Source: Coriobacteriales bacterium (lineage in GTDB: Bacteria > Actinomycetota > Coriobacteriia > Coriobacteriales > UMGS124). From it: a stretch of 39,137 bases of DNA. The notes under the pieces are model-generated. The model did not search any database and was not told where the DNA came from. It saw only the letters and a list, made by a program, of their open reading frames with translations. The stretch is taken from positions 1 through 39,137 of the forward strand of contig JAFWFL010000110.1 of NCBI GenBank assembly GCA_017515595.1, in the 5' to 3' direction. The position numbers and the translations under genes were made by a program. Shown here piece by piece: positions 1,784 to 16,227 of this stretch (position 1 is the first letter of the stretch; every line of letters starts with the position of its first letter).

Positions 1784-1896
1784 ACAGCATAGCATGATGT
1801 CCTTATTGCCTCTTAATAATGGCATTGCGGTATATGCCGCAAAAAGAGTATCCTTTGTACGATAAAGATATTAAAGACAGAACAAGGAGCTGGGTT

Positions 1897-2889
1897 ATGA
1901 TTAATCTTCGGGAAGGGCTTGAAGTATACCGAGATAGGCCGGTACACCTAAGCTGGAAGGTGCCCGCGTTTTTAAATAATGACTGGCTCGCTCTGCGATT
2001 AGTTCAGTATTGCGAAGATATGGGGGCTGACCGGCCGTTTGATATGGTATACGGGGCCCCTCATTGTATTTGGGCGGGCGGACGGCCTTCTTCTTATACA
2101 AAGGAAATGACAAAAGACCAGCTTGAAGCTTATTTCTCGGCATATGAGAGACATGGTATTACCGTAGCATTAACATTTTCACGTTTGGGTATTGATAAGA
2201 ATATGGTCAAAGACCCCTACGGCAACTTGATTCTGAGTGTGGCCGAGAAGCATAATGCCCAGGCTATTGTTGCTGATGACCGGCTTGCCCGCAAGATTCG
2301 CAACGACTATCCTCATATGCGCCTCATCGCTTCATATGACCGTACGGTTACTACACTTGCAGCGAGGGGTTTCTCGGATGAAACGCAGTATTATAAGCAG
2401 GCATTTGGTCTCTATGATGAGGTTGTATTACGCTGTGAATATGCGCTGGATGATGCTCTTATTAACGAGCTGCCAAAAGAGCTTCTTGGCAAATGCGAAG
2501 TATTGGTTAATCAGATGTGTGTGCCCAATTGTACCGTATGCGAAAAGCATATCAGAGGTATAGAAGACTGGGCCTTTGGCTCACGTAAGGATGTTCCCTG
2601 TCCACCTTGTTATCATCTGAAAGACGTGGGTGATCCCGCGCGTCGTTTGGAACGCAACGTTCTTCTCTCAAATAAACGCATTAATGAGCTGGCAGCAATG
2701 GGTATGGGGAGATTTAAGATTGGCGGACGTAACGCACCGCCTCAAAAATTCGTTGACCTTTTTGTTGACTATATATTTGAGCCAACAGGTGCCATTACCG
2801 TGCTCAAAACCGGTTTAGTGGGTGAGCTGGGAATGCTTCAGCGCAAATATCCGGGTTTTATGCAGTATAATTTGCCTGATGGTATTTAG
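1897..2889 (+). CDS. U32-peptidase-like protein with a CxxxCxxC cysteine cluster, function unknown
   Basis: This is a 330-residue soluble protein. I chose ATG 1897 because AAGGAG (1884-1889) sits 7 bases before it; in-frame ATGs at 1819 and 1834 have no such site. The N-terminal two thirds (VHLSWKVPAFL, GITVALTFSRLG, AQAIVADDRLARKI, RLIASYDRTV) looks like a TIM-barrel of the U32 peptidase/UbiU-UbiV type. The last third has five cysteines: C208-x3-C212-x2-C215 (MCVPNCTVCEKH), then C235-x2-C238 (PCPPC). These could bind an iron-sulfur cluster. There is no signal peptide. The gene is probably co-transcribed with the TetR gene 47 bases downstream. The family assignment is tentative; members of U32 include an RNA-modifying and a quinone-hydroxylating branch, and I cannot say which, if either, applies. 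Confidence 0.6.
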   Translation: MINLREGLEVYRDRPVHLSWKVPAFLNNDWLALRLVQYCEDMGADRPFDMVYGAPHCIWAGGRPSSYTKEMTKDQLEAYFSAYERHGITVALTFSRLGIDKNMVKDPYGNLILSVAEKHNAQAIVADDRLARKIRNDYPHMRLIASYDRTVTTLAARGFSDETQYYKQAFGLYDEVVLRCEYALDDALINELPKELLGKCEVLVNQMCVPNCTVCEKHIRGIEDWAFGSRKDVPCPPCYHLKDVGDPARRLERNVLLSNKRINELAAMGMGRFKIGGRNAPPQKFVDLFVDYIFEPTGAITVLKTGLVGELGMLQRKYPGFMQYNLPDGI

Positions 2890-2936
2890 GAGTAATAGAG
2901 AATGGACTATTGCAGCCTTATATAGAGGAGAATGCG

Positions 2937-3578
2937 ATGGACAGCGAGGGCTTGAACAACCAGATTGGTATGCAAAAGGACCATATTGCTGAGCGTTTGC
3001 ATATAGCGGCGGTAATAGATTTTCTGTCTCGCACCAAAGAGTATGACTCTTTAACTGTGAGTGAGATTTGCCAACATGCAAAAATCTCGCGCACAAGTTT
3101 CTACCGTCTTTTTGCTGATAAATATGACGCCGCAAACTGGTATATGTTCCAGGTTTTAGACGCAGGCAACACGCTCACGGGGCGTAATTATACCTGGTAT
3201 GAAGGCAACCTTATTACTCTGTCGGGCTGTATGCTTATGAAAGACCTCATGGGGAGCGCATGGAAGAGCGCCGGTTATTATGCCATGAAAGAAACAGGCA
3301 TACGCAAAAAGTATGAAGAAATGGTTACAACCATTACACAGTATAAAAACCTCGAATTGACTGATGAACTCAGGTTTCAATGTGACTCATTTGCATACAT
3401 AGAGAGCTATGTAGTAAGAACGTGGATACGCGAAAAAGAGCCAAGAACGGTCGAAGAAATGGCGTCATATATTGATCATATTGTACCGCCACAGCTCCAC
3501 GAGCTTTTAAATAAGCCCATAGATCCAAAACCTGCCGAGAAACTCACGCTTGGTTCTTTGGTGCTTGCTATATCATAA
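2937..3578 (+). CDS. TetR/AcrR-family transcriptional regulator
   Basis: A 213-residue DNA-binding protein. Its N-terminus carries the TetR helix-turn-helix: LTVSEICQHAKISRTSFYRLFADKYD at about residues 40-65 matches the family closely. The C-terminal ligand and dimerisation region is family-specific and gives no ligand. Start ATG 2937 follows GAGGAG (2925-2930) by 6 bases; an in-frame TTG at 2910 lacks a site. It follows the U32-like gene by 47 bases and is convergent with the FMN-binding gene. Nearby candidate operators are the related inverted repeats at 1751-1783 and 4177-4229. It may therefore control the U32-like gene and the flavoprotein 1 region; this is inferred from position and shared sequence. 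Confidence 0.85.
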   Translation: MDSEGLNNQIGMQKDHIAERLHIAAVIDFLSRTKEYDSLTVSEICQHAKISRTSFYRLFADKYDAANWYMFQVLDAGNTLTGRNYTWYEGNLITLSGCMLMKDLMGSAWKSAGYYAMKETGIRKKYEEMVTTITQYKNLELTDELRFQCDSFAYIESYVVRTWIREKEPRTVEEMASYIDHIVPPQLHELLNKPIDPKPAEKLTLGSLVLAIS

Positions 3579-3653: not shown

Positions 3654-4001
3654 TTAGATTGCCTGCTCAAGTGCCTCGCGTACAGCACTCAGGAAACCGT
3701 TTGAAGAAATGGTTGCACTGCCTACAGCGTCAACCCCCTCAACACCATTTGCCTCAACTACGCGGCCGGCGAGATACTTAATGGCTGCTCCGCCAAGGTT
3801 TGGAGTCTCGTTGTGGTTACCAATAATAACTTCAGCAACCTTACCGCCCTCGACAACAACGCTTACGGGAATATCGTCGCCGTTGCCATAACCAATACCA
3901 AAGCCTACGCCATCATATGTGCCGTCTTTATAGACGGTCTCGGAAGGAGTGATCTCTTTCTCAGGAACAAACCACGTATCAAAAATGTAGGTACCTTTCA
4001 T
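3654..4001 (-). CDS. Stand-alone FMN-binding domain protein
   Basis: A 115-residue single-domain protein of the FMN_bind type, as found in NqrC, RnfG and UrdA-like reductases. The C-terminal DAVGSATISS (residues 91-100) resembles the DxxSGATxxS site where FMN is attached through a phosphoester to Thr by an ApbE-type flavin transferase; T97 would be the attachment residue. GS replaces the usual SG before A-T. It starts MKGTYIFDTWF with no signal peptide, which is odd because most covalent FMN domains work outside the membrane. ATG at 4001 has AGGAGG 4 bases before it; an upstream in-frame ATG at 4034 is rejected. It is divergent from flavoprotein 1, which lacks an FMN domain, so it may serve as a separate electron donor. 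That is inference. Confidence 0.8.
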   Translation of the reverse strand: MKGTYIFDTWFVPEKEITPSETVYKDGTYDGVGFGIGYGNGDDIPVSVVVEGGKVAEVIIGNHNETPNLGGAAIKYLAGRVVEANGVEGVDAVGSATISSNGFLSAVREALEQAI

Positions 4002-4479: not shown

Positions 4480-6471
4480 ATGGAAAACATTTCTCGTCGT
4501 CAGTTTGTTGCCGCTGCTGCCGCAACCGCAGGCGTAGCTGCTATGTCTAAATATGCTATCGCAGAAGAAGCTGCCGCTGCATGCGGAGCGCCTGATCCTG
4601 ATCCCTTTGTACTTCCCAATGCAGAGATCAAGGTATTTGAGGGTGGCCGCCGCCGTCCCGAGGCTCTCTCACGTGAGCATCCTCTGCCCATGGAGACAGG
4701 CCATGTTGGTCCCAATGCTATGCCCATCCCGCCGGTTGATGTGCCTGCCGAGTGGACAGACGAAGCTGACGTAGTTGTTGTAGGTGCCGGTTACGGCGGA
4801 CTTACCGCTGCTGCTTATGCCGCACGTAACGGTTACACCGCAATTCTTCTTGAGAAGAACGCCGAGGTTGGCGGCACTTCTGCTCACGCCGCTATTAACA
4901 TGTGCGTTGCCGGCGGTGCTAAGGAGCAAATTCAGCTTGGTTACTTCTGGCCCAACGACACCTTCTCGATCAACCAGGCTGTTAACAAGCTCAACAATGA
5001 GTATCAGAACTCAATTGACCTTGACCTTCTGACTGCTACCGTTATTGCAAACCCGGTCTGGATTGACTGGATGCAAGAGGAAATGAAGGTTGGCTGGGAA
5101 TGCATTGGTTCACTTTACTGGCGTCCCGAGATTGGCGCAAAGCAGACCACCACTGTTATTGGTAACCGTCCTACCTGCGAGATTCTTGCTGCTAACGCAG
5201 AAGCTGACGGTGCGCAGATTCTTCTTAAGACCGAGGCTCTTAACCTTGTTAAGGACGGTAACAGCATTGTTGGCGTTAAGGCCAAGCAATGGGATGGTAC
5301 CGAGGTTTATTACAAGGCCAACAATGGTGTTATTTTGACCGCCGGTCACTTTGGTATGAACTTTGACCTTCTTGAGCAGTACTGCCCAACCGCTTACCGC
5401 GCAGCTGCAACCGGCGGCCCCATGCCCTGGACAACCGGCGAGTGCTTCCGTATGGGTCTTGGTGTTGGCGCTGACGTCAGCGGTTTTGACTCATGGTGCG
5501 CATGGGACGGCGGCGCAGACGAGTTCTGGAACAGCGGCAACGGCAACTGGTGGAACTATTTCTGGAGCGGCGAGCGTCAGCTTGCAAAGAACCCCTGGCT
5601 CCTTCTTAACAAGGCCGGCGACCGTCTGCCTTACTATGCAGCAGACTTTGTTGCAGGTAACATCCAGCCCGGTTATGACATTGACACGTATTCAATGGGT
5701 GACCTTACCAACAGCGCTGCTTGGTTTGCAACCATCGGTAACCGCAACTACTGCATCTTTGATGACAATTATGCCGAGAATGTCTTCTCGTTCGAGTCAG
5801 CTCACACCGCTGCTGACGAAGGCCGTATTCCGGTACATCCCGGCGACGGCACTCCGCAGCAAATGTATTGCACCCAGAACTGGCAATATGAGTTTGAGCA
5901 GGCCATTGAGCAGGGTTCTGCCTTCCGTGCAGACACCATTGAAGAGCTTGCCGAGATGGTAGGCCTTCCTGTTGAGAAGACCGTGGCACAGGTAGCCAAG
6001 TGGAACGAGATTGTTGCCTCCGGCGACGACTCCGCATTCACTCCTGCTTATTTGCCCGACTGGCTGGTACCCATTGCTACTCCTCCGTTCTACTGCATCC
6101 CCTGCTCAGGCCAGATTGGCAAGATCATGTGCGGTCTTCGTGTTAACCCCAAGATGCAGGTTATCACCCCTCAGGGCAACCCCATTGACGGCCTGTATGC
6201 CGGTTGGTTTACTGCCGGCGGTATCTGCGGCGAGTCTTCGTTTGGTGGCCAGTTTGGTAACCCCACCCTTGCAGGCGGCGTAGCAATCTCAGGTGTTGGC
6301 GGCCTTATGGCAGTACGTGCCGCTCTTGGTAATCCCATCACCTATGATGATCTTTGTGATGAGGCTAAGGCTCTTGACCAGGCAGACCGCATTGCACAGT
6401 CTGAGGCATACCTTGCCAAGGCAGCCGACGGCAGCTACATGCCCATTGTCCAGTCTCAGGATCACCTGTAA
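4480..6471 (+). CDS. Tat-exported FAD-dependent oxidoreductase 1 (fumarate reductase flavoprotein-like)
   Basis: A 663-residue flavoprotein of the FAD_binding_2 family, likely a reductase of an organic electron acceptor on the outer face of the membrane. The N-terminus MENISRRQFVAAAAA is a twin-arginine signal with cleavage near AIA/EE. After a Pro-rich linker comes ADVVVVGAGYGGLTAAAY (GxGxxG at 102-107) and LLEKNAEVGGTSAH for FAD binding. The C-terminal LYAGWFTAGGICGESS closes the FAD fold. ATG 4480 follows AAGGAG (4468-4473) by 6 bases; ATG 4357 is not used. It lacks a heme or FMN domain. At the place where flavoproteins 2 and 3 read HTGE/HTGD, this one reads TTGE. It is a clear paralogue of the gene at 8517. 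The substrate cannot be predicted. Confidence 0.88.
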   Translation: MENISRRQFVAAAAATAGVAAMSKYAIAEEAAAACGAPDPDPFVLPNAEIKVFEGGRRRPEALSREHPLPMETGHVGPNAMPIPPVDVPAEWTDEADVVVVGAGYGGLTAAAYAARNGYTAILLEKNAEVGGTSAHAAINMCVAGGAKEQIQLGYFWPNDTFSINQAVNKLNNEYQNSIDLDLLTATVIANPVWIDWMQEEMKVGWECIGSLYWRPEIGAKQTTTVIGNRPTCEILAANAEADGAQILLKTEALNLVKDGNSIVGVKAKQWDGTEVYYKANNGVILTAGHFGMNFDLLEQYCPTAYRAAATGGPMPWTTGECFRMGLGVGADVSGFDSWCAWDGGADEFWNSGNGNWWNYFWSGERQLAKNPWLLLNKAGDRLPYYAADFVAGNIQPGYDIDTYSMGDLTNSAAWFATIGNRNYCIFDDNYAENVFSFESAHTAADEGRIPVHPGDGTPQQMYCTQNWQYEFEQAIEQGSAFRADTIEELAEMVGLPVEKTVAQVAKWNEIVASGDDSAFTPAYLPDWLVPIATPPFYCIPCSGQIGKIMCGLRVNPKMQVITPQGNPIDGLYAGWFTAGGICGESSFGGQFGNPTLAGGVAISGVGGLMAVRAALGNPITYDDLCDEAKALDQADRIAQSEAYLAKAADGSYMPIVQSQDHL

Positions 6472-6531
6472 GATCTTCTGTGGCTTCTCGGGTAATTAAA
6501 GAGAATGCCACAAGTGTTAAGGAGTAATGAA

Positions 6532-6569
6532 AACGGCGGAGGTACAGAACGTGCGGCTCCGCCGTTTTT
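6532..6569 (+). terminator. Rho-independent terminator after flavoprotein 1
   Basis: AACGGCGGAG (6532-6541) pairs perfectly with CTCCGCCGTT (6557-6566), followed by TTT. It separates flavoprotein 1 from the following three-gene unit, so that unit has its own promoter within 6570-6705. Confidence 0.8.
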
Positions 6570-6717
6570 ACAAATGGGAATTGCGGGAAAGTGTGACATT
6601 GGTTTTATACAACTCCCCTCTTTATATGTTTCAAAGATTAATGTCATATTTTCCGACAATTCCTGTCGCAAAGCTGTAAGGTTTTAAATTCCTGAAAGAG
6701 AAAAGCGAGGAAGCAAT

Positions 6718-7377
6718 ATGTTAGAAAAACTGACTCCCAAAAGTCCGGCTGATGTTTCTTTAAAAACCCCGGTTATTAATGTGTGGGGATTTAAGAGCCC
6801 GCTGTTTGAAGGAGAGCCGTTTAAGGCTGCTGTACGGGTGAAAGCTGTTGACGGTATGTCCCTAGAAGGGTCAACTATTAAGATTGTTGATTCCACAACC
6901 GGTCATGTACTGGGTTCTTCGCGGGTGGGTACTGCTGAGGATACCCGGGCCGGCAAGTTACAAGATGAAATTGAACTTACAGCGCCTGCAGAGCCGGGGA
7001 TGCATAAATATTTTGCAGTACTTGATGATGGGAGTGATTCTATACCTGTACAGGTGTCATTCCCGTTCTCGGTAGTACCAAAGGGAGAGCGTGAGATTAC
7101 CGTTACATGTAAGGATGACAAATCAGGCAAGCCTTTAGCAGCGCGTTTGTTTCTCTACAATACCAAGCTTGACAAAACAAAGCCTATAGATGTACGTGCT
7201 GATGAGAACGGCGTTGCACATGCAAAGATTGTCCCAAATGTTGATTATAAAGTGAAGGCAGTGTGTGAAGACTATGTTATGTCGTTTCTTGATATCCCGG
7301 CTGAGGCTCCTGAGAATGACCGTTATGAACTGCCTATGCGCTATGTCTTTAATGTTAAAATAAAGCGTCCGTTCTAA
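6718..7377 (+). CDS. Unknown protein, two predicted beta-sandwich-like regions
   Basis: A 219-residue protein I do not recognise. It has no signal peptide, membrane segment or cysteine pair. The sequence alternates short hydrophobic strands with turns. Residues 15-125 (FKAAVRVKAVDGMSLEGSTIKIVD, then FAVLDDGSDSIPVQVSFPFSVV) and 130-219 (REITVTCKDDKSGKPLAARLFLY, VDYKVKAVCEDYVMSFLDIP) resemble Ig-like or carboxypeptidase-regulatory-like beta sandwiches. GAGGAAG lies 5-6 bases before the ATG. It is the first gene of an apparent operon with the radical SAM enzyme (82-base gap) and flavoprotein 2, so a partner or substrate role in that system is plausible. No function is assigned. Confidence 0.75.
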   Translation: MLEKLTPKSPADVSLKTPVINVWGFKSPLFEGEPFKAAVRVKAVDGMSLEGSTIKIVDSTTGHVLGSSRVGTAEDTRAGKLQDEIELTAPAEPGMHKYFAVLDDGSDSIPVQVSFPFSVVPKGEREITVTCKDDKSGKPLAARLFLYNTKLDKTKPIDVRADENGVAHAKIVPNVDYKVKAVCEDYVMSFLDIPAEAPENDRYELPMRYVFNVKIKRPF

Positions 7378-7459
7378 ACAGTATATTCCCCTTGTATATA
7401 GGACTGTGGCTTGTCATACCACGGCAGGCCATGGTCCTTTATTCTTTAAGGCTGATATT

Positions 7460-8503
7460 ATGAAAAAGAAAAAACAATCATTTGCGTTCCAGTGGCATAT
7501 AACCGATTCATGTGACCAGCGCTGTAAACATTGCTACATCTTCTCTGAAGGTTTTTGTGATTTTACCTCAATGCTGTTTAAAGACATGGTAGACGTGCTT
7601 GATTCGATTGAAGATATGGGTATTCGTACATATCGTGAACCCTACATTTACATGACAGGCGGAGATCCTCTTTTACACCCTGACTTTTGGAAGATTGCCG
7701 GAGAAATGCACAGACGCAATATTCGTTTTGCGATTATGGGGAATCCGTTTCATCTTGATGCTGATGTATGTACAAAGCTCAGGCAGCTTGGTTGCCGCAA
7801 ATACCAAGTTTCGCTTGACGGGCTTGAGAAGACCCATGATGAGTTTAGAATGCCCGGATCATTTGCGGAGACCATGAGAGTAATTCCGCTTATACGCGAA
7901 GCAGGTATGTATTGTGCTGTTATGAGCACGGTTTCGAGTAAAAACATGGCCGAGATACCCCTGGTTATTGACTTAGTAGGCAGTATGAACGTTGACGTGT
8001 TTGCCTGTGGGCGTTATTGCCCCACAAGCGGGCAAAAACGCGACGAGTTTCATATTGAGCCGCTGGATTACCGGAAATTTCTTATTGAGTGCCAAAAGCA
8101 CATAAAACAAGCGGCTGCGCAGGGCAGTACAACATATTTTCATCCCAAAGACCATCTTTGGACGCTTTTGAACTGGGAACAAGGTACCTTCAAAATACCT
8201 GAAGACGCAGATCCGCAAACTATATATAGCGGATGCCATTGTGCGATTTCCCATCTAACAATTCTGCCCAAAGGAGACGTGTATGCCTGCCGCCGTATGG
8301 AGAGCAAAGTGGGCAATGTATTTGAGAAGCCACTCTATGAGCTGTTTATGAGCGCAGAAATGAATGAGTATCGTCAGTATGACCAAATGGAGAAGTGCTC
8401 AACCTGCGAACTTCTTAGGTGGTGCCGCGGGTGTAGCGCTGTGTCATACGGTTATACCAAAAACCACCTGGCAGCTGACCCGCAATGTTGGAAAGATTTA
8501 TAA
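7460..8503 (+). CDS. Radical SAM enzyme with SPASM-type C-terminal cluster domain
   Basis: A 347-residue iron-sulfur enzyme. The radical SAM motif C18-DQR-C22-KH-C25 binds the [4Fe-4S]/SAdoMet cluster, and MTGGDPLLHP is the GGE-like motif. The last 90 residues form a SPASM-like domain for auxiliary clusters: CHC, GDVYACRR, CSTCELLRWCRGC (C-x2-C-x5-C-x2-C), then DPQCW. SPASM enzymes such as PqqE, AlbA and sulfatase-maturating enzymes mostly modify peptides or proteins. ATG 7460 is chosen because it begins a typical Lys-rich start; AAGG lies 8 bases before. It ends only 13 bases before flavoprotein 2, so they are almost surely co-translated. No short precursor peptide is visible, which makes the flanking unknown protein or the flavoprotein candidate targets. 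That is inference. Confidence 0.9.
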   Translation: MKKKKQSFAFQWHITDSCDQRCKHCYIFSEGFCDFTSMLFKDMVDVLDSIEDMGIRTYREPYIYMTGGDPLLHPDFWKIAGEMHRRNIRFAIMGNPFHLDADVCTKLRQLGCRKYQVSLDGLEKTHDEFRMPGSFAETMRVIPLIREAGMYCAVMSTVSSKNMAEIPLVIDLVGSMNVDVFACGRYCPTSGQKRDEFHIEPLDYRKFLIECQKHIKQAAAQGSTTYFHPKDHLWTLLNWEQGTFKIPEDADPQTIYSGCHCAISHLTILPKGDVYACRRMESKVGNVFEKPLYELFMSAEMNEYRQYDQMEKCSTCELLRWCRGCSAVSYGYTKNHLAADPQCWKDL

Positions 8504-8516
8504 GGGAGGAAAATCT

Positions 8517-10400
8517 ATGGCTCAGGCGAAAACAGGTATTTCGCGTAGGAAATTTGTCAAAGCGAGTATGGCTGCGGGAACCATAGTTACAGGTATGTCT
8601 CGTAAAAAAGCCTTAGCAAGCGATGCGCCGCAAGCACAAAGCTTTGAGGGCTTTAAAGCTCCAAGTACAGAAGACGGCTTGTTAAGCGTACGCCCGGGAC
8701 ATGGAGAAGGAAACCCTCGTACTCCTGGTTTTGCACGTGCAGAGGCCACTCCTATCGCTCCGGTTGAGCCCCCCAAGGCATGGGACAAAGAAGCTGATGT
8801 TGTGGTTGTTGGGACCGGCATGGGCGGGCTGGCTGCGATTATTAATTGTGCTGAAGGAGGGCTTTCTGTTATTGGTCTTGAAAAGGATTCCAGAACGGGC
8901 GGCTCGGGCAGGCACGCGTATTATAACCTGTGTTATGTAGGCGGTACTGACGAGCAAAACAGCTTAAAGGCAGGGTATCCCATAGCTGTATTTAAGCCTA
9001 ATAATGCGGGACAGTGCAGGGAGGTCGCACGGGAGTTCAACAAACATTATCAATATAGCGCGAACCTTAAGCTGCTCGAACGCGTTGCCCAGTGCGGGCC
9101 AAAATATATTGATTGGCTGCGAAACGAGCCTAATTCCCAGGTACATCTTCATGATTTTGGAGGACGCAAGGCCTGTGCCTGGACTAATGCCGAGCATGAT
9201 GAACACGGGTATAACGCAGCAATGGGTAACAGTACCTTGGTTGACCGGCTTACGCAAAATGCTGCTGATGCAGGAGCACAAATTCTCACAAGCACTGAGT
9301 GTACAGCACTGGCGAGAGATGCTGATGGGCGGATTGTAGGAGTCAGAGCAGAGGACGATAACGGTATAATTTATATTAAAGCCAAACGCGGTGTTCTTTT
9401 GGCGGCGGGTGGTTTTGGTTTTAATCTTGATCTGCTTGAACAGTATATCCCCACTGCGTATTTATGTGCAACAAGCGGAGGTCCGGTGCCATCGCACACC
9501 GGCGAAGCCTTTAGGATGGGCCTTGGTGTTGGCGCTGATTTTGCAGGTTTTAATTCGTTTGTTTGTTGGGACTCAGGAGCAGATACGTATTGGAATGGAC
9601 AAGGCGCATATTGCTCGGATTTTTGGTCGAGTGTGCACCAGCTTACCTATATGCCCATTGTGAAGTTCAACAAGCTCGGAGAACGTGTTGCCCATTTTGG
9701 CGTAGGAGCATCGGATGCTGCAAGTATGAGGTCAGACGAGTATTATGCAACAAACTATGATCCCAATATGGCACAGTCATGGGCTTGCCCTGATTACCGC
9801 AAATACATGGTGTGGGACAGTACCTGGGATTTTGAAACAGTTAACAATCTAGAAGGAACCGCAGCCACTAAGTATTCGCCTGCGCTTACCTGGAAGTACT
9901 TCTCGCCAATTGCTTTGGAGACCAGGGCACAAACCTGGGAAGAAGATTTTCAGAACTATATAGATTCCGGGCTTATTAAGGTTGCCAATACCATCGAAGA
10001 ACTGGGAGAGATGTGGGGTTTTGAGCCGGGGGTTCTTGAAGGGGCAGTAGAACGCTGGAATGCTGACTGTGAGGCAGGCAAAGACACCGAGAGCGTAATT
10101 CCGTATGCTGCCGAGGCTCTGGTTCCCATTAAGGAACCGCCGTTTTATGGTATGTGTATGGGAGCCCAGATTTCAAAGACCAACTGCGGGCTTCGGGTTA
10201 CCAACAGAATGGAAGTAGTGGACAACACTCCTCAGCACAATATCATCCCCGGCCTTTATGCTTCTTGGAGCACTGCCGGCGGCTTTACCGGTGAAAGCAT
10301 GTTCTTGGATTTTGGCCAGGTGAGCCCCATGGGTTCAGTAGCGCTTTCAGGAACCACGGGCTATATAGCCTCTCTGGCAATTTTGGGTGAACTTGAATAA
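8517..10400 (+). CDS. Tat-exported FAD-dependent oxidoreductase 2 (paralogue of oxidoreductase 1)
   Basis: A 627-residue flavoprotein. GISRRKFVKASMAAG is the twin-arginine signal. EADVVVVGTGMGGLAA (GxGxxG at 99-104) and GLEKDSRTGGSGRHAYY bind FAD; the C-terminus has LYASWSTAGGFTGESM. Long stretches align with oxidoreductase 1: LEQYxPTAY, FRMGLGVGAD, WDxGAD, so the two arose by duplication. Here HTGEAFRMG keeps a His missing from oxidoreductase 1. ATG 8517 follows AGGGAGGA by 6-7 bases. It is the last gene of the 6718-10400 unit and follows the radical SAM gene by 13 bases. It probably reduces an extracellular acceptor, with electrons from a membrane or FMN-domain donor; substrate unknown. Confidence 0.88.
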   Translation: MAQAKTGISRRKFVKASMAAGTIVTGMSRKKALASDAPQAQSFEGFKAPSTEDGLLSVRPGHGEGNPRTPGFARAEATPIAPVEPPKAWDKEADVVVVGTGMGGLAAIINCAEGGLSVIGLEKDSRTGGSGRHAYYNLCYVGGTDEQNSLKAGYPIAVFKPNNAGQCREVAREFNKHYQYSANLKLLERVAQCGPKYIDWLRNEPNSQVHLHDFGGRKACAWTNAEHDEHGYNAAMGNSTLVDRLTQNAADAGAQILTSTECTALARDADGRIVGVRAEDDNGIIYIKAKRGVLLAAGGFGFNLDLLEQYIPTAYLCATSGGPVPSHTGEAFRMGLGVGADFAGFNSFVCWDSGADTYWNGQGAYCSDFWSSVHQLTYMPIVKFNKLGERVAHFGVGASDAASMRSDEYYATNYDPNMAQSWACPDYRKYMVWDSTWDFETVNNLEGTAATKYSPALTWKYFSPIALETRAQTWEEDFQNYIDSGLIKVANTIEELGEMWGFEPGVLEGAVERWNADCEAGKDTESVIPYAAEALVPIKEPPFYGMCMGAQISKTNCGLRVTNRMEVVDNTPQHNIIPGLYASWSTAGGFTGESMFLDFGQVSPMGSVALSGTTGYIASLAILGELE

Positions 10401-12764: not shown

Positions 12765-12782
12765 GCGCACCACAAGCTTTGC

Positions 12783-12911
12783 TGTTCAGGGCGGGGTGAG
12801 AATCCCCACTGGCGGTATCGGTACAACCAAGTACCGGAGTCCGCGAGCCCCATAGGGGTTGATCTGGTGAGATGCCAGAACCAACGGTATAGTCCGGATG
12901 GAAGAACACGC
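12783..12911 (+). ncRNA. FMN riboswitch (RFN element)
   Basis: The order of conserved blocks is unmistakable: CAGGGCGGGGTGAGAATCCC, ACTGGCGGTA, GTCCGCGAGCCCC, GATCTGGTGAGATGCCAG, ACGGTATAGTCCGGATGGA, then AGAA. The RNA binds flavin mononucleotide and, when bound, lets the following terminator form. It controls the rib genes just downstream. Confidence 0.97.
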
Positions 12912-12989
12912 GATGATTGTACGGCGGTTATACGCAGTCTCTATGAGGAGACTCGCCGGAGAACGCCTGCAATCTCAATTGATTCCAAG

Positions 12990-13019
12990 CCCGCGAACAG
13001 AAGTTCGGCGGGTTTTTTA
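12990..13019 (+). terminator. Riboswitch-controlled terminator
   Basis: CCCGCGAAC (12990-12998), AGAA loop, GTTCGGCGGG (13003-13012; one bulged G), then TTTTTT. Position between the aptamer and ribD indicates transcription attenuation. Confidence 0.88.
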
Positions 13020-13065
13020 TTGCCCTGAGCCTGCCGGGCTTTTGTACACGGCAGAAGGGCCTTAT

Positions 13066-14253
13066 ATGGTTCAAGAAACAGAATACAACCGGTTTATGAC
13101 GCGTGCGATAGAGCTGGCACTCTTGGGTGACGGACTCACCAATCCTAACCCTTTGGTAGGAGCCGTGATCGAGAAGGACGGGCAGATTCTGGGCGAAGGT
13201 TATCATGAGCGCTACGGCGACCTTCATGCCGAGAGAAACGCGCTTAAAGAATGTTTTGCCAAGGGAAATGATCCTCGTGGTGCAACAATGTATGTGACTC
13301 TGGAACCCTGCTGCCATACCGGTAAACAACCGCCTTGTGTTGACGCAATTCTAGAATCGGGCATATCAAAAGTCGTTATTGGCTCACGGGACCCAAACCC
13401 CCTGGTACGCGGTAAAGGCGCCGAGTACTTGCGCAATGCGGGAATTCAGGTGGTAGAAGATGTAGAACGCAAAGCGTGCGATGCGCTCAACCAAATCTTT
13501 TTTGAGTATATAACTACCAAAGTGCCGTATACCATTGTAAAGTGGGCAATGACAGCTGACGGACATATTGCCTGCGCAAACGGTGACTCAAGGTGGATAA
13601 CGGGAACACGTGCCCGTAAACATGTCCATGCGCTCAGAAACAGGGTCGCCGCCATTATGGTTGGCATTGGAACTGTGATTGCAGATGATCCGCAGCTTAC
13701 TTGCAGGCTTGATGGCGGGAACAACCCCCTCCGTATTGTGTGTGACACACATCTTGCTATTCCGTTGGACTCTGCCCTTGTAAAGACGGCAAAACAAGTG
13801 CCGCTGCTTGTTGCTTGTGCTTCTGATGCTGGTGTTGAGGATTTAAAGATTGAGACACTCGAATCCTGCGGGGTACAGGTTCTTTGCGTGCCTCTTCTCA
13901 ATGGTCATATTGATATTCGTGCACTCATGACAGAGCTTGGCAAACGAGGCATTGACTCGGTTCTCGCAGAGGGTGGCTCCACGCTTAACAGGGCTGTTCT
14001 TGATGCCGGCGTGTGCTCTGAACTGGCTGTCTATATTGCGCCTAAAGTTCTGGGAGGTCATAACGCGATGAGTCCGGTTGGAGGGGAAAGCCCTCTTGCC
14101 ATGGATAAAGCACTCCGTTTTCACCCGCCTCAGGTTCTCAGACTTGGCGATGATGTTTTGTTGGGAATGCGCACTTGTAATGGCTTTGAACAGGCGGATG
14201 GCACTGAACCACCATGTGTATGTACCGGCCCGCTTGGCCTTTGGAGGGAATGA
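13066..14253 (+). CDS. ribD: Bifunctional riboflavin deaminase/reductase RibD
   Basis: A 395-residue cytoplasmic enzyme that deaminates the pyrimidine from GTP cyclohydrolase II and then reduces its ribose side chain. The N-terminal CMP/dCMP-deaminase fold shows LHAERNAL and LEPCCHTGKQPPC, the Zn ligands and catalytic Glu. The C-terminal DHFR-like reductase begins VKWAMTADGHIAC, with SRWITG and LAEGGSTLNRAVL. The start at 13066 follows AGAAGGGC; earlier in-frame starts fall inside the riboswitch and terminator and are rejected. It is the first gene of the rib operon, with TGA 6 bases before the ribE ATG. Confidence 0.96.
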   Translation: MVQETEYNRFMTRAIELALLGDGLTNPNPLVGAVIEKDGQILGEGYHERYGDLHAERNALKECFAKGNDPRGATMYVTLEPCCHTGKQPPCVDAILESGISKVVIGSRDPNPLVRGKGAEYLRNAGIQVVEDVERKACDALNQIFFEYITTKVPYTIVKWAMTADGHIACANGDSRWITGTRARKHVHALRNRVAAIMVGIGTVIADDPQLTCRLDGGNNPLRIVCDTHLAIPLDSALVKTAKQVPLLVACASDAGVEDLKIETLESCGVQVLCVPLLNGHIDIRALMTELGKRGIDSVLAEGGSTLNRAVLDAGVCSELAVYIAPKVLGGHNAMSPVGGESPLAMDKALRFHPPQVLRLGDDVLLGMRTCNGFEQADGTEPPCVCTGPLGLWRE

Positions 14254-14259
14254 TTGCTT

Positions 14260-14940
14260 ATGTTTACCGGAATTATCGAAGAAGTTGCAAAAGTTCTCGC
14301 GCTGCCCCCAAAACATCAGGCAGGCGAGCTGGTCATTGAAGCAAAGCATGTCCTTGAGGATGTACATCTTGGTGATTCGATTGCCGTGAACGGCGTCTGC
14401 CTTACGGTTACCTCCTTTGGGAGCACACGATTTGCTGTTGATGTTATGCCGCAGACACTTGCTCATACAAGCCTTGGAGATCTGCACGTGGGCAGCAGCG
14501 TTAACCTCGAGCGCGCCATGCAGATGGGCGGCCGCTTTGGCGGACATATTGTAAGCGGGCACATTGACGGTACCGGTACCGTAGCTTTGCTCACACGCGA
14601 CCAGAATGCGGTGCGTATGCACATAACCTGCTCAGAGGAGCAAAGAAAGCTTATTGTTGAGCGAGGCTCGATTGCGGTTGACGGAGTGAGTCTCACGGTA
14701 TCGAATCTTTTTGACGACGGGTTTGAGGTCTCAGTGATTCCTCATACGAGGTCACAAACAATTCTTATGGATAAGCGCGTAGGTGACCGCGTTAATCTCG
14801 AAAATGATGTGATTGGCAAATATGTTGCGGCATTGCTGCAGGGAGATCAAGATGCCCGACAGATACTCTGGGGAGCAAGTCAGCCCGGGGCTTCTCGGCA
14901 GGAAATAACTCTTGATTATTTGCGTGAACATGGATTTTAA
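14260..14940 (+). CDS. ribE: Riboflavin synthase alpha chain
   Basis: It converts two molecules of 6,7-dimethyl-8-ribityllumazine to riboflavin. The 226 residues make the usual two lumazine-binding barrels: MFTGIIEE, VNGVCLTVTSFG and GGRFGGHIVSGHIDGTG from the first, VDGVSLTVSNLF and NLENDVIGKY from the second. The start is ambiguous in an instructive way: TTG 14254 lies 6 bases after GGAGG, while ATG 14260 lies 12 bases after it. MFTGI is the near-universal N-terminus, so I keep ATG 14260; TTG would add Met-Leu. Gene name follows the ribE (riboflavin synthase) usage; E. coli calls it ribC. Confidence 0.96.
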   Translation: MFTGIIEEVAKVLALPPKHQAGELVIEAKHVLEDVHLGDSIAVNGVCLTVTSFGSTRFAVDVMPQTLAHTSLGDLHVGSSVNLERAMQMGGRFGGHIVSGHIDGTGTVALLTRDQNAVRMHITCSEEQRKLIVERGSIAVDGVSLTVSNLFDDGFEVSVIPHTRSQTILMDKRVGDRVNLENDVIGKYVAALLQGDQDARQILWGASQPGASRQEITLDYLREHGF

Positions 14941-14964
14941 ACAAAATAAAAAGGAGCAATCAAA

Positions 14965-16227
14965 ATGGAACAAATGATAAATGGCTTTGGTATTACGGCC
15001 CAGGAAACTTCCGAGAATGCGCTTCAGCTGAACACGGTAGAGGAAGCTATCCAGGAGCTGCAGATGGGGCGCTGTATTTTGGTTGTTGATGACCCGGACC
15101 GGGAGAATGAAGGCGATCTTATTTGCGCAGCTGAGTATGCAACAACCGCGAACGTGAACCTTATGGCAACCGAGGCACGCGGTCTTATTTGCATGCCCAT
15201 GAGCGCTTCGATCGCTGCGCGGCTTGACTTTCCGCCTATGGTTGCCATCAATACCGACAACCATGAGACAGCATTTACCGTGAGCGTTGACCATGTGGAA
15301 ACCGGTACGGGTATCAGTGCCGAGGAACGCGGCCTCACGGCTCGCAAGGTAGTAGACGAGTCATCAAAGCCAGAGGATTTTAGACGGCCGGGCCATATGT
15401 TCCCGCTGGTCGCAAGGCCGGGAGGAGTTCTTGAACGCAACGGCCATACCGAGGCCACCGTTGACCTTTTGCGCCATGCCGGTATGAAGCAGTGCGGTCT
15501 TTGCTGCGAGATTATGCGTCCTGACGGGTACATGATGCGCACAAGCGAACTTATCGAGAAGGCCCGGAGCCTGGGACTTGCGATGATCAGCATTAAGCAG
15601 CTGCAGGATTACTGCCGCATCCATGACAACCATATGCGCGAAGAAGCCGTGGCAGAGCTGCCCACAGATTACGGCGTGTTCAAGATTCACGTGTTCAGGA
15701 ATGACATTACCCAGGAAGAACACGTAGCCCTTGTGAAGGGAGATATTGGGAACGGACGCGACGTGCTGGTGCGCGTGCACTCGGAGTGCCTCACGGGCGA
15801 CGCATTTGGCTCGCGCAGATGCGACTGCGGAGACCAGCTCCACACCGCTATGAGACGCATTGATCAGGAGGGACGCGGCGTCATTCTTTACATGCGCCAG
15901 GAGGGCAGAGGTATTGGTCTTGCGAACAAGATCAGAGCCTATAAGCTCCAGGAACAGGGCATGGATACCGTTGAAGCAAACGAGGCGCTGGGATTTGAAC
16001 CTGACTTGCGTGAGTATTGGAGCGGCGCTCAGATTCTGCGCAACCTCGGCTGCCGGAGCGTACGGCTTCTCACCAATAACCCGGATAAGCTCTACAAACT
16101 CGCAGACTTTGGCCTCGAGATAACCGAGCGTGTTCCCATCGAGATACAAGCTCATGATGGTGATCGCCGCTACCTGGAGACAAAAGCCCACAAAATGGGC
16201 CATATCTTTGAAACCGCCCTCGCATAA
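14965..16227 (+). CDS. ribBA: Bifunctional DHBP synthase / GTP cyclohydrolase II
   Basis: A 420-residue fusion that makes both precursors of riboflavin: 3,4-dihydroxy-2-butanone 4-phosphate from ribulose 5-phosphate (N-terminal half), and the diaminopyrimidine from GTP (C-terminal half). [11 protein letters not shown] and DSGHTVAE-type substitutes such as [10 protein letters not shown] mark the first domain. [18 protein letters not shown] (Zn cysteines) and [11 protein letters not shown] mark the second. The N-terminus is about 20 residues longer than usual before [18 protein letters not shown] lies 8-9 bases before the ATG. Gaps of 24 bases to ribE and 27 bases to ribH support one operon. 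Confidence 0.96.

Follow-up and report, generated by a model that had tools for sequence, protein, structure and literature searches.

A radical SAM/SPASM enzyme of the ACGX family without its precursor peptide at a flavoprotein locus of a Coriobacteriales genome, and its possible re-targeting to an exported flavoprotein

In a stretch of 39,137 nucleotides from a Coriobacteriales bacterium (GenBank assembly GCA_017515595.1, contig JAFWFL010000110.1, positions 1 to 39,137 of the forward strand; hereafter, the window), a gene at 7460-8503 (forward strand) encodes a radical S-adenosylmethionine (SAM)/SPASM enzyme that belongs to the ACGX peptide-maturation family and lacks the precursor peptide that accompanies its relatives. 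It stands between genes for a beta-sandwich protein and for a flavoprotein with a signal for twin-arginine translocation (Tat), and a paralogous flavoprotein is encoded nearby at 4480-6471. The enzyme is best read as an ACGX maturase that has been orphaned and perhaps re-targeted to an exported flavoprotein. Our proposal, which we hold tentatively, is that an intact ACGX-type maturase has, in this lineage, parted from its usual peptide and may now modify a protein encoded at the flavoprotein locus, the likeliest target being an ACGX-like unit in the 4480 flavoprotein. We put re-targeting forward because it covers both the missing peptide and the presence of this motif, and because it is directly testable.

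The enzyme (347 amino acids, ATG start) scores 500.1 bits against TIGR04340, "radical SAM/SPASM domain protein, ACGX system" (cut-off, 400), and Pfam recognizes its Radical_SAM (69 bits) and SPASM (40 bits) domains. The second-best and nearest other family is SbtM (TIGR04082), to which the enzyme does not belong: its 187 bits lie far under the cut-off of 350, and the window locus holds no selenocysteine (Sec) peptide. SbtM acts on Cys or Sec substrates, from which four hydrogens are removed to give a thiooxazole (review PMC11002830). Within the collection of papers searched, none mentions ACGX together with radical SAM. The CxxxCxxC motif reads CDQRCKHC, and its cysteines C18, C22, and C25, as well as the C-terminal SPASM cysteines, are invariant in the alignment. 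Identity to peptide-associated orthologues of the same order is 60-62% for six of them and 46-47% for two. The window enzyme departs at 13 of the 137 columns at which the other six enzymes compared never vary, against 0-5 departures for enzymes of the same clade and 30 for the distant L014; judged from the alignment, these changes fit altered specificity or relaxed selection. A longer frame from a GTG at 7406, considered as a leader fused to the enzyme, was rejected; it crosses a hairpin, and relatives begin near the ATG at 7460, which we therefore prefer as the start. The same genome encodes a second, more distant TIGR04340-like enzyme (G000:C49:17289-18672, L009; 373 bits, 43% identical) in an open frame of 606 amino acids, followed by an 89-amino-acid Nif11-type precursor that ends DDDLENVAGGCVCICCAHNCARICAR. 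Long frames resembling that of the C49 enzyme are also present in G277, G308, and G315.

Three surveys establish how regularly the peptide accompanies the enzyme: 150 related genomes, a named-genome scan using alignment patterns (80 relatives in Coriobacteriia, Lachnospiraceae and other Firmicutes, and Bacteroidales), and 397 genomes of the order Coriobacteriales. Among the 150 genomes, eight others carry a TIGR04340 enzyme over the cut-off; seven of these have an ACGX-repeat peptide upstream, and the eighth locus starts at a contig end. The named-genome scan places an ACGX-repeat precursor just upstream of the enzyme in 76 of 80 relatives, the exceptions being L143 and L172 at contig ends, L162 beside an assembly gap, and L114, where no peptide is visible. 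Within the order, 28 genomes have the enzyme over the cut-off, the window's own included. Among the loci read, the precursor is present in all 26 other copies that have upstream sequence, always upstream of the enzyme and mostly within about 500 bases. A sequence-only reading of the window had paired the enzyme with the beta-sandwich protein or the flavoprotein. As a family rule this pairing fails, since a short precursor adjoins the enzyme elsewhere, an outcome that the reading itself had given as a refutation, and the three-gene order is not conserved, no other genome among 249 having the beta-sandwich gene by this enzyme.

Across the 80 named loci the usual neighbors are an HxlR regulator (59 loci), a nitroreductase (46), a zinc dehydrogenase (36), and an SIR2-like protein (28), as identified by Pfam from one example per neighbor cluster. 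The ACGX peptide and maturase recur together with these genes across three phyla (L100-L179), a neighborhood that suggests a role in electrophile or redox stress. Between peptide and enzyme, Collinsella and some other Coriobacteriales encode a protein of about 205 amino acids with two [4Fe-4S] motifs. Even if re-targeting proves false, the window enzyme is tied to this widespread and little-studied ACGX/HxlR/nitroreductase/zinc dehydrogenase/SIR2 system of Actinobacteria, Firmicutes, and Bacteroidota.

The window locus resembles the TIGR04340/TIGR04341 ACGX system in the score of its enzyme and in the 60-62% identity to most of the same-order peptide-associated copies compared, but the peptide itself is missing. 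The flanks of the enzyme gene contain no ACGX-repeat precursor; the spot upstream is sequenced and is occupied by another gene. A precursor hidden within the window was also considered and rejected, as the intergenic stretches of the locus hold short open reading frames (ORFs) none of which is Cys-rich. In the genome as a whole (a 134-contig assembly, 97.7% complete), a search with TIGR04341 (target_ACGX) gave no match, and a pattern scan found no clustered CGxxD motifs. A profile of ten precursors likewise detected no peptide there, whereas it found one, with E values of 2.7e-13 or better, in all seven control genomes, namely those having the enzyme and upstream sequence. The sequence-only reading was thus right that no precursor is visible here. 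No HxlR, nitroreductase, zinc dehydrogenase, or SIR2 gene was recognized among the neighbors of the window enzyme; its neighbors are instead Tat flavoproteins.

The flavoproteins encoded at 4480-6471 (forward strand) and 8517-10400 (forward strand, 627 amino acids) are paralogous, with 41% identity in one comparison and 37% in another alignment; the 4480 protein belongs to the fumarate/urocanate-reductase superfamily. Both match Pfam FAD_binding_2 (PF00890; 99 and 104 bits) and carry twin-arginine signals (SRRQF and SRRKF), as do Tat-exported reductases of the fumarate/urocanate-reductase type, and among solved structures flavocytochrome c3 and urocanate reductase are nearest to them. At loci of this type, a TIGR04340 enzyme was seen only in the window and in G010, a metagenome-assembled genome of Coriobacteriia. 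In G010, the peptide and enzyme genes adjoin those for a U32-like protein, a TetR regulator (54% identical to the one at 2910-3578 in the window), and a flavoprotein of 48% identity; two genomes therefore have enzyme and cassette together. Of the 80 named loci, only that of G010 has such a flavoprotein near the enzyme, in a position other than downstream. The pairing of a U32-like protein with a 4480-type flavoprotein, found in G010, G110, and G064 as well, marks the former as a conserved partner.

The sequence-only reading's suggestion that a flavoprotein might be the substrate is plausible, but the adjacent 8517 gene fits it poorly and its paralogue is the better candidate. The 4480 flavoprotein starts MENISRRQFVAAAAATAGVAAMSKYAIAEEAAAACGAPDPDPFVLPN, and directly after its Tat signal stands ACGAPDPDP (residues 34-42; 4579-4605, forward strand), which resembles a single ACGX unit; the precursors of Atopobiaceae (L107, L117), for comparison, are composed of ACGTPDPAP repeats. 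A DNA pattern for CG[AST]xD[PKTNHQ] has 12 matches in the genome, against 9 for a reversed control, and three of the 12 fall in recognizable genes: that of the 4480 flavoprotein and two that, by eye, encode an acetate kinase and an aminopeptidase. We also built a unit profile from 107 true ACGX units and scored 1,607 Cys-Gly sites as background. Leaving out precursor ORFs, ACGAPDPDP is equalled or exceeded by just two other sites, both in spurious frames. When every Cys-Gly site in the neighboring proteins is taken into account, we estimate the chance of such a motif at about 1%. The stretch is predicted to be disordered (block-mean predicted local distance difference test [pLDDT] score, 28-39), so the site should be accessible. 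As evidence for a substrate, the motif is suggestive only.

If re-targeting holds, the 4480 flavoprotein would fold and take up flavin adenine dinucleotide (FAD) in the cytoplasm, where the radical SAM enzyme would oxidize Cys35-Gly36 of the flexible N-terminal linker, to a thiooxazole by analogy with SbtM. The folded protein would then be exported by Tat with a modified N-terminal tail, which might bind metal or react with electrophiles, and the leaderless beta-sandwich protein would act as a cytoplasmic accessory of the flavoproteins. Bufferins, copper chelators whose thiooxazoles are made by multinuclear non-haem iron enzymes (MNIOs; PMC12452194), would offer a functional parallel to a modified flavoprotein, as they carry Cys-derived thiooxazoles on exported products; they differ in the enzyme superfamily and in having small dedicated precursors. 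A more specific idea is that a maturase of a ribosomally synthesized and post-translationally modified peptide (RiPP) has been recruited to a respiratory flavoprotein, a full-size substrate exported by Tat, in which a single acceptor unit of the peptide type directly follows the signal, and that the peptide gene was lost; we consider this doubtful, and less likely than re-targeting to some protein of the locus. If it is correct, relocation of the acceptor motif to a different protein would have turned a peptide-maturation enzyme into a modifier of ordinary redox enzymes, and the exported flavoprotein reductases, which are abundant in Coriobacteriia, would gain a hitherto unknown post-translational modification.

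Several observations weigh against re-targeting. The 4480 flavoprotein has one unit where TIGR04341 precursors have several, it was not detected by the whole-precursor profile, and the score of ACGAPDPDP ranks only at the 8th percentile among true units. The motif was picked out post hoc, and a single genome shows the pattern. In an alignment with related flavoproteins, Cys35 coincides with their lipobox cysteine and may thus be a relic. In G010, the closest relative that has the enzyme nearby, a peptide is present and the flavoprotein lacks an ACGX-like motif. Furthermore, G110 and G064 (77% complete) have the U32-like/flavoprotein pair and no TIGR04340 match over the cut-off, and the enzyme is therefore not generally needed for the 4480-type flavoprotein family. 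Finally, the thiooxazole chemistry supposed for a TIGR04340 enzyme is borrowed from SbtM.

About as likely as re-targeting, and likewise short of an even chance, is that the enzyme still acts on a small peptide that is encoded elsewhere, falls in an assembly gap, or has diverged too far to be recognized, its place at the flavoprotein locus being historical. Linkage to a peptide is nearly universal in the family, and the genome is in 134 contigs and 97.7% complete. The genome also has other RiPP systems, such as the related enzyme with its Nif11-type peptide at C49. In G010, peptide and enzyme already adjoin the U32-like/TetR/flavoprotein cassette, so nearness of enzyme and cassette alone can be inherited. 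Against this stand the constant upstream position of the peptide in all loci of the order read with upstream sequence, a position that here is sequenced and holds another gene, and the failure of TIGR04341, of our own positively controlled profile, and of the search for clustered CGxxD motifs to find any such peptide.

The remaining explanations rank below these two. Decay, in which the enzyme gene, after loss of the peptide, persists as a recent relic with selection relaxed, is improbable. It would agree with the extra changes at 13 of 137 conserved columns and with the absence of recognized HxlR, nitroreductase, zinc dehydrogenase, and SIR2 partners nearby, but the frame is full-length, the cluster cysteines are intact, and the score exceeds the family cut-off. 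In addition, the next gene is tightly coupled to it, with 13 bases from the radical SAM stop to the ATG of the 8517 flavoprotein and a good ribosome site, AGGGAGG, in the gap.

Another candidate for the enzyme's partner is the protein encoded just upstream at 6718-7377 (forward strand, 219 amino acids). Its AlphaFold model (mean pLDDT, 83) shows two tandem beta-sandwich domains, Ig-like and prealbumin/CnaB-like, and the best Foldseek matches of the model are Gram-positive pilins, with E values down to 6e-8 and low TM-scores. No Pfam or NCBIfam model matches the protein over its cut-off; the SpaA/CnaB prealbumin-like domain reaches 13.8 bits against a cut-off of 23.1, a fold with which the prediction agrees in kind. 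No evident signal peptide is present. In 249 genomes we found eight distant relatives (20-30% identity), four of which are encoded directly downstream of FAD_binding_2 genes, two of these four near multihaem cytochrome genes, while three of the eight lie near the DNA ligase gene ligA. The link to flavoproteins is hence borne out by half of the relatives, but the pairing with the enzyme, which the sequence-only reading had also envisaged, recurs in no other of these genomes.

That this beta-sandwich protein is the substrate, having replaced the precursor, is very unlikely. It does occupy the usual precursor position, the 16-bp hairpin between its gene and that of the enzyme has counterparts in three of the six precursor loci examined (L010, L011, L017), and it carries two cysteines absent from its relatives in place of two that are conserved in them. 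Yet it contains no Cys-Gly and no ACGX-like unit, its distant relatives go with flavoproteins or ligA rather than with a TIGR04340 enzyme, and hairpins are missing from some precursor loci. Least likely of all is modification of the adjacent 8517 flavoprotein at a site unrelated to ACGX, as had been proposed from the sequence: the 13-base coupling favors it and Tat export is compatible with prior modification in the cytoplasm, but the protein has no Cys in its N-terminal 80 residues, where the linker lies, and no ACGX-like unit, and the only flavoprotein near the enzyme in the other loci searched, that of G010, is not downstream of it.

The order and coordinates of the three genes were as first described, with the paralogue, the TetR gene, and the FMN-binding gene alongside. 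Their transcription appears less simple. A terminator-like hairpin (6530-6568, forward strand; a perfect 12-bp stem and then a T run) lies 3' of the 4480 gene, and a terminator- or attenuator-like hairpin with a T-rich tail (7400-7438, forward strand) separates the beta-sandwich gene from the radical SAM gene. Because of these hairpins, the 4480 gene is probably a transcription unit separate from the three-gene group. The beta-sandwich gene does come first in that group, but with the 7400-7438 hairpin a single transcript spanning all three cannot be assumed, and co-transcription of the beta-sandwich and enzyme genes may be partial. The idea of one inducible respiratory system is unsupported, as a terminator-like hairpin divides the region and no operator motif is shared among its promoters above chance; candidate sites for a common TetR operator in the promoters of the U32-like and flavoprotein genes were at chance level and were rejected. 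An imperfect inverted repeat (6577-6663; 24-nucleotide arms, 83% complementary, 39 nucleotides apart) lies 5' of the beta-sandwich gene.

Upstream of the 4480 gene, the window encodes a U32-peptidase-like protein with a cysteine cluster (1819-2889, forward strand), for which the Pfam U32 match is weak (E value, 0.05) and no solved-structure relative was found by sequence, followed by the TetR-family regulator (2910-3578, forward strand; Pfam TetR_N) and, on the reverse strand, a leaderless flavin mononucleotide (FMN)-binding-domain protein (3654-4001; FMN_bind, PF04205, 51 bits). Near a paralogue of the U32-like protein, at L210:2011-2289 (G000:C79), is a Nif11-type leader peptide ending SGGGWWPCGGYK. 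Farther along the window, an FMN riboswitch (RF00050, 103 bits) at 12778-12914 lies upstream of riboflavin biosynthesis genes (12898-16227).

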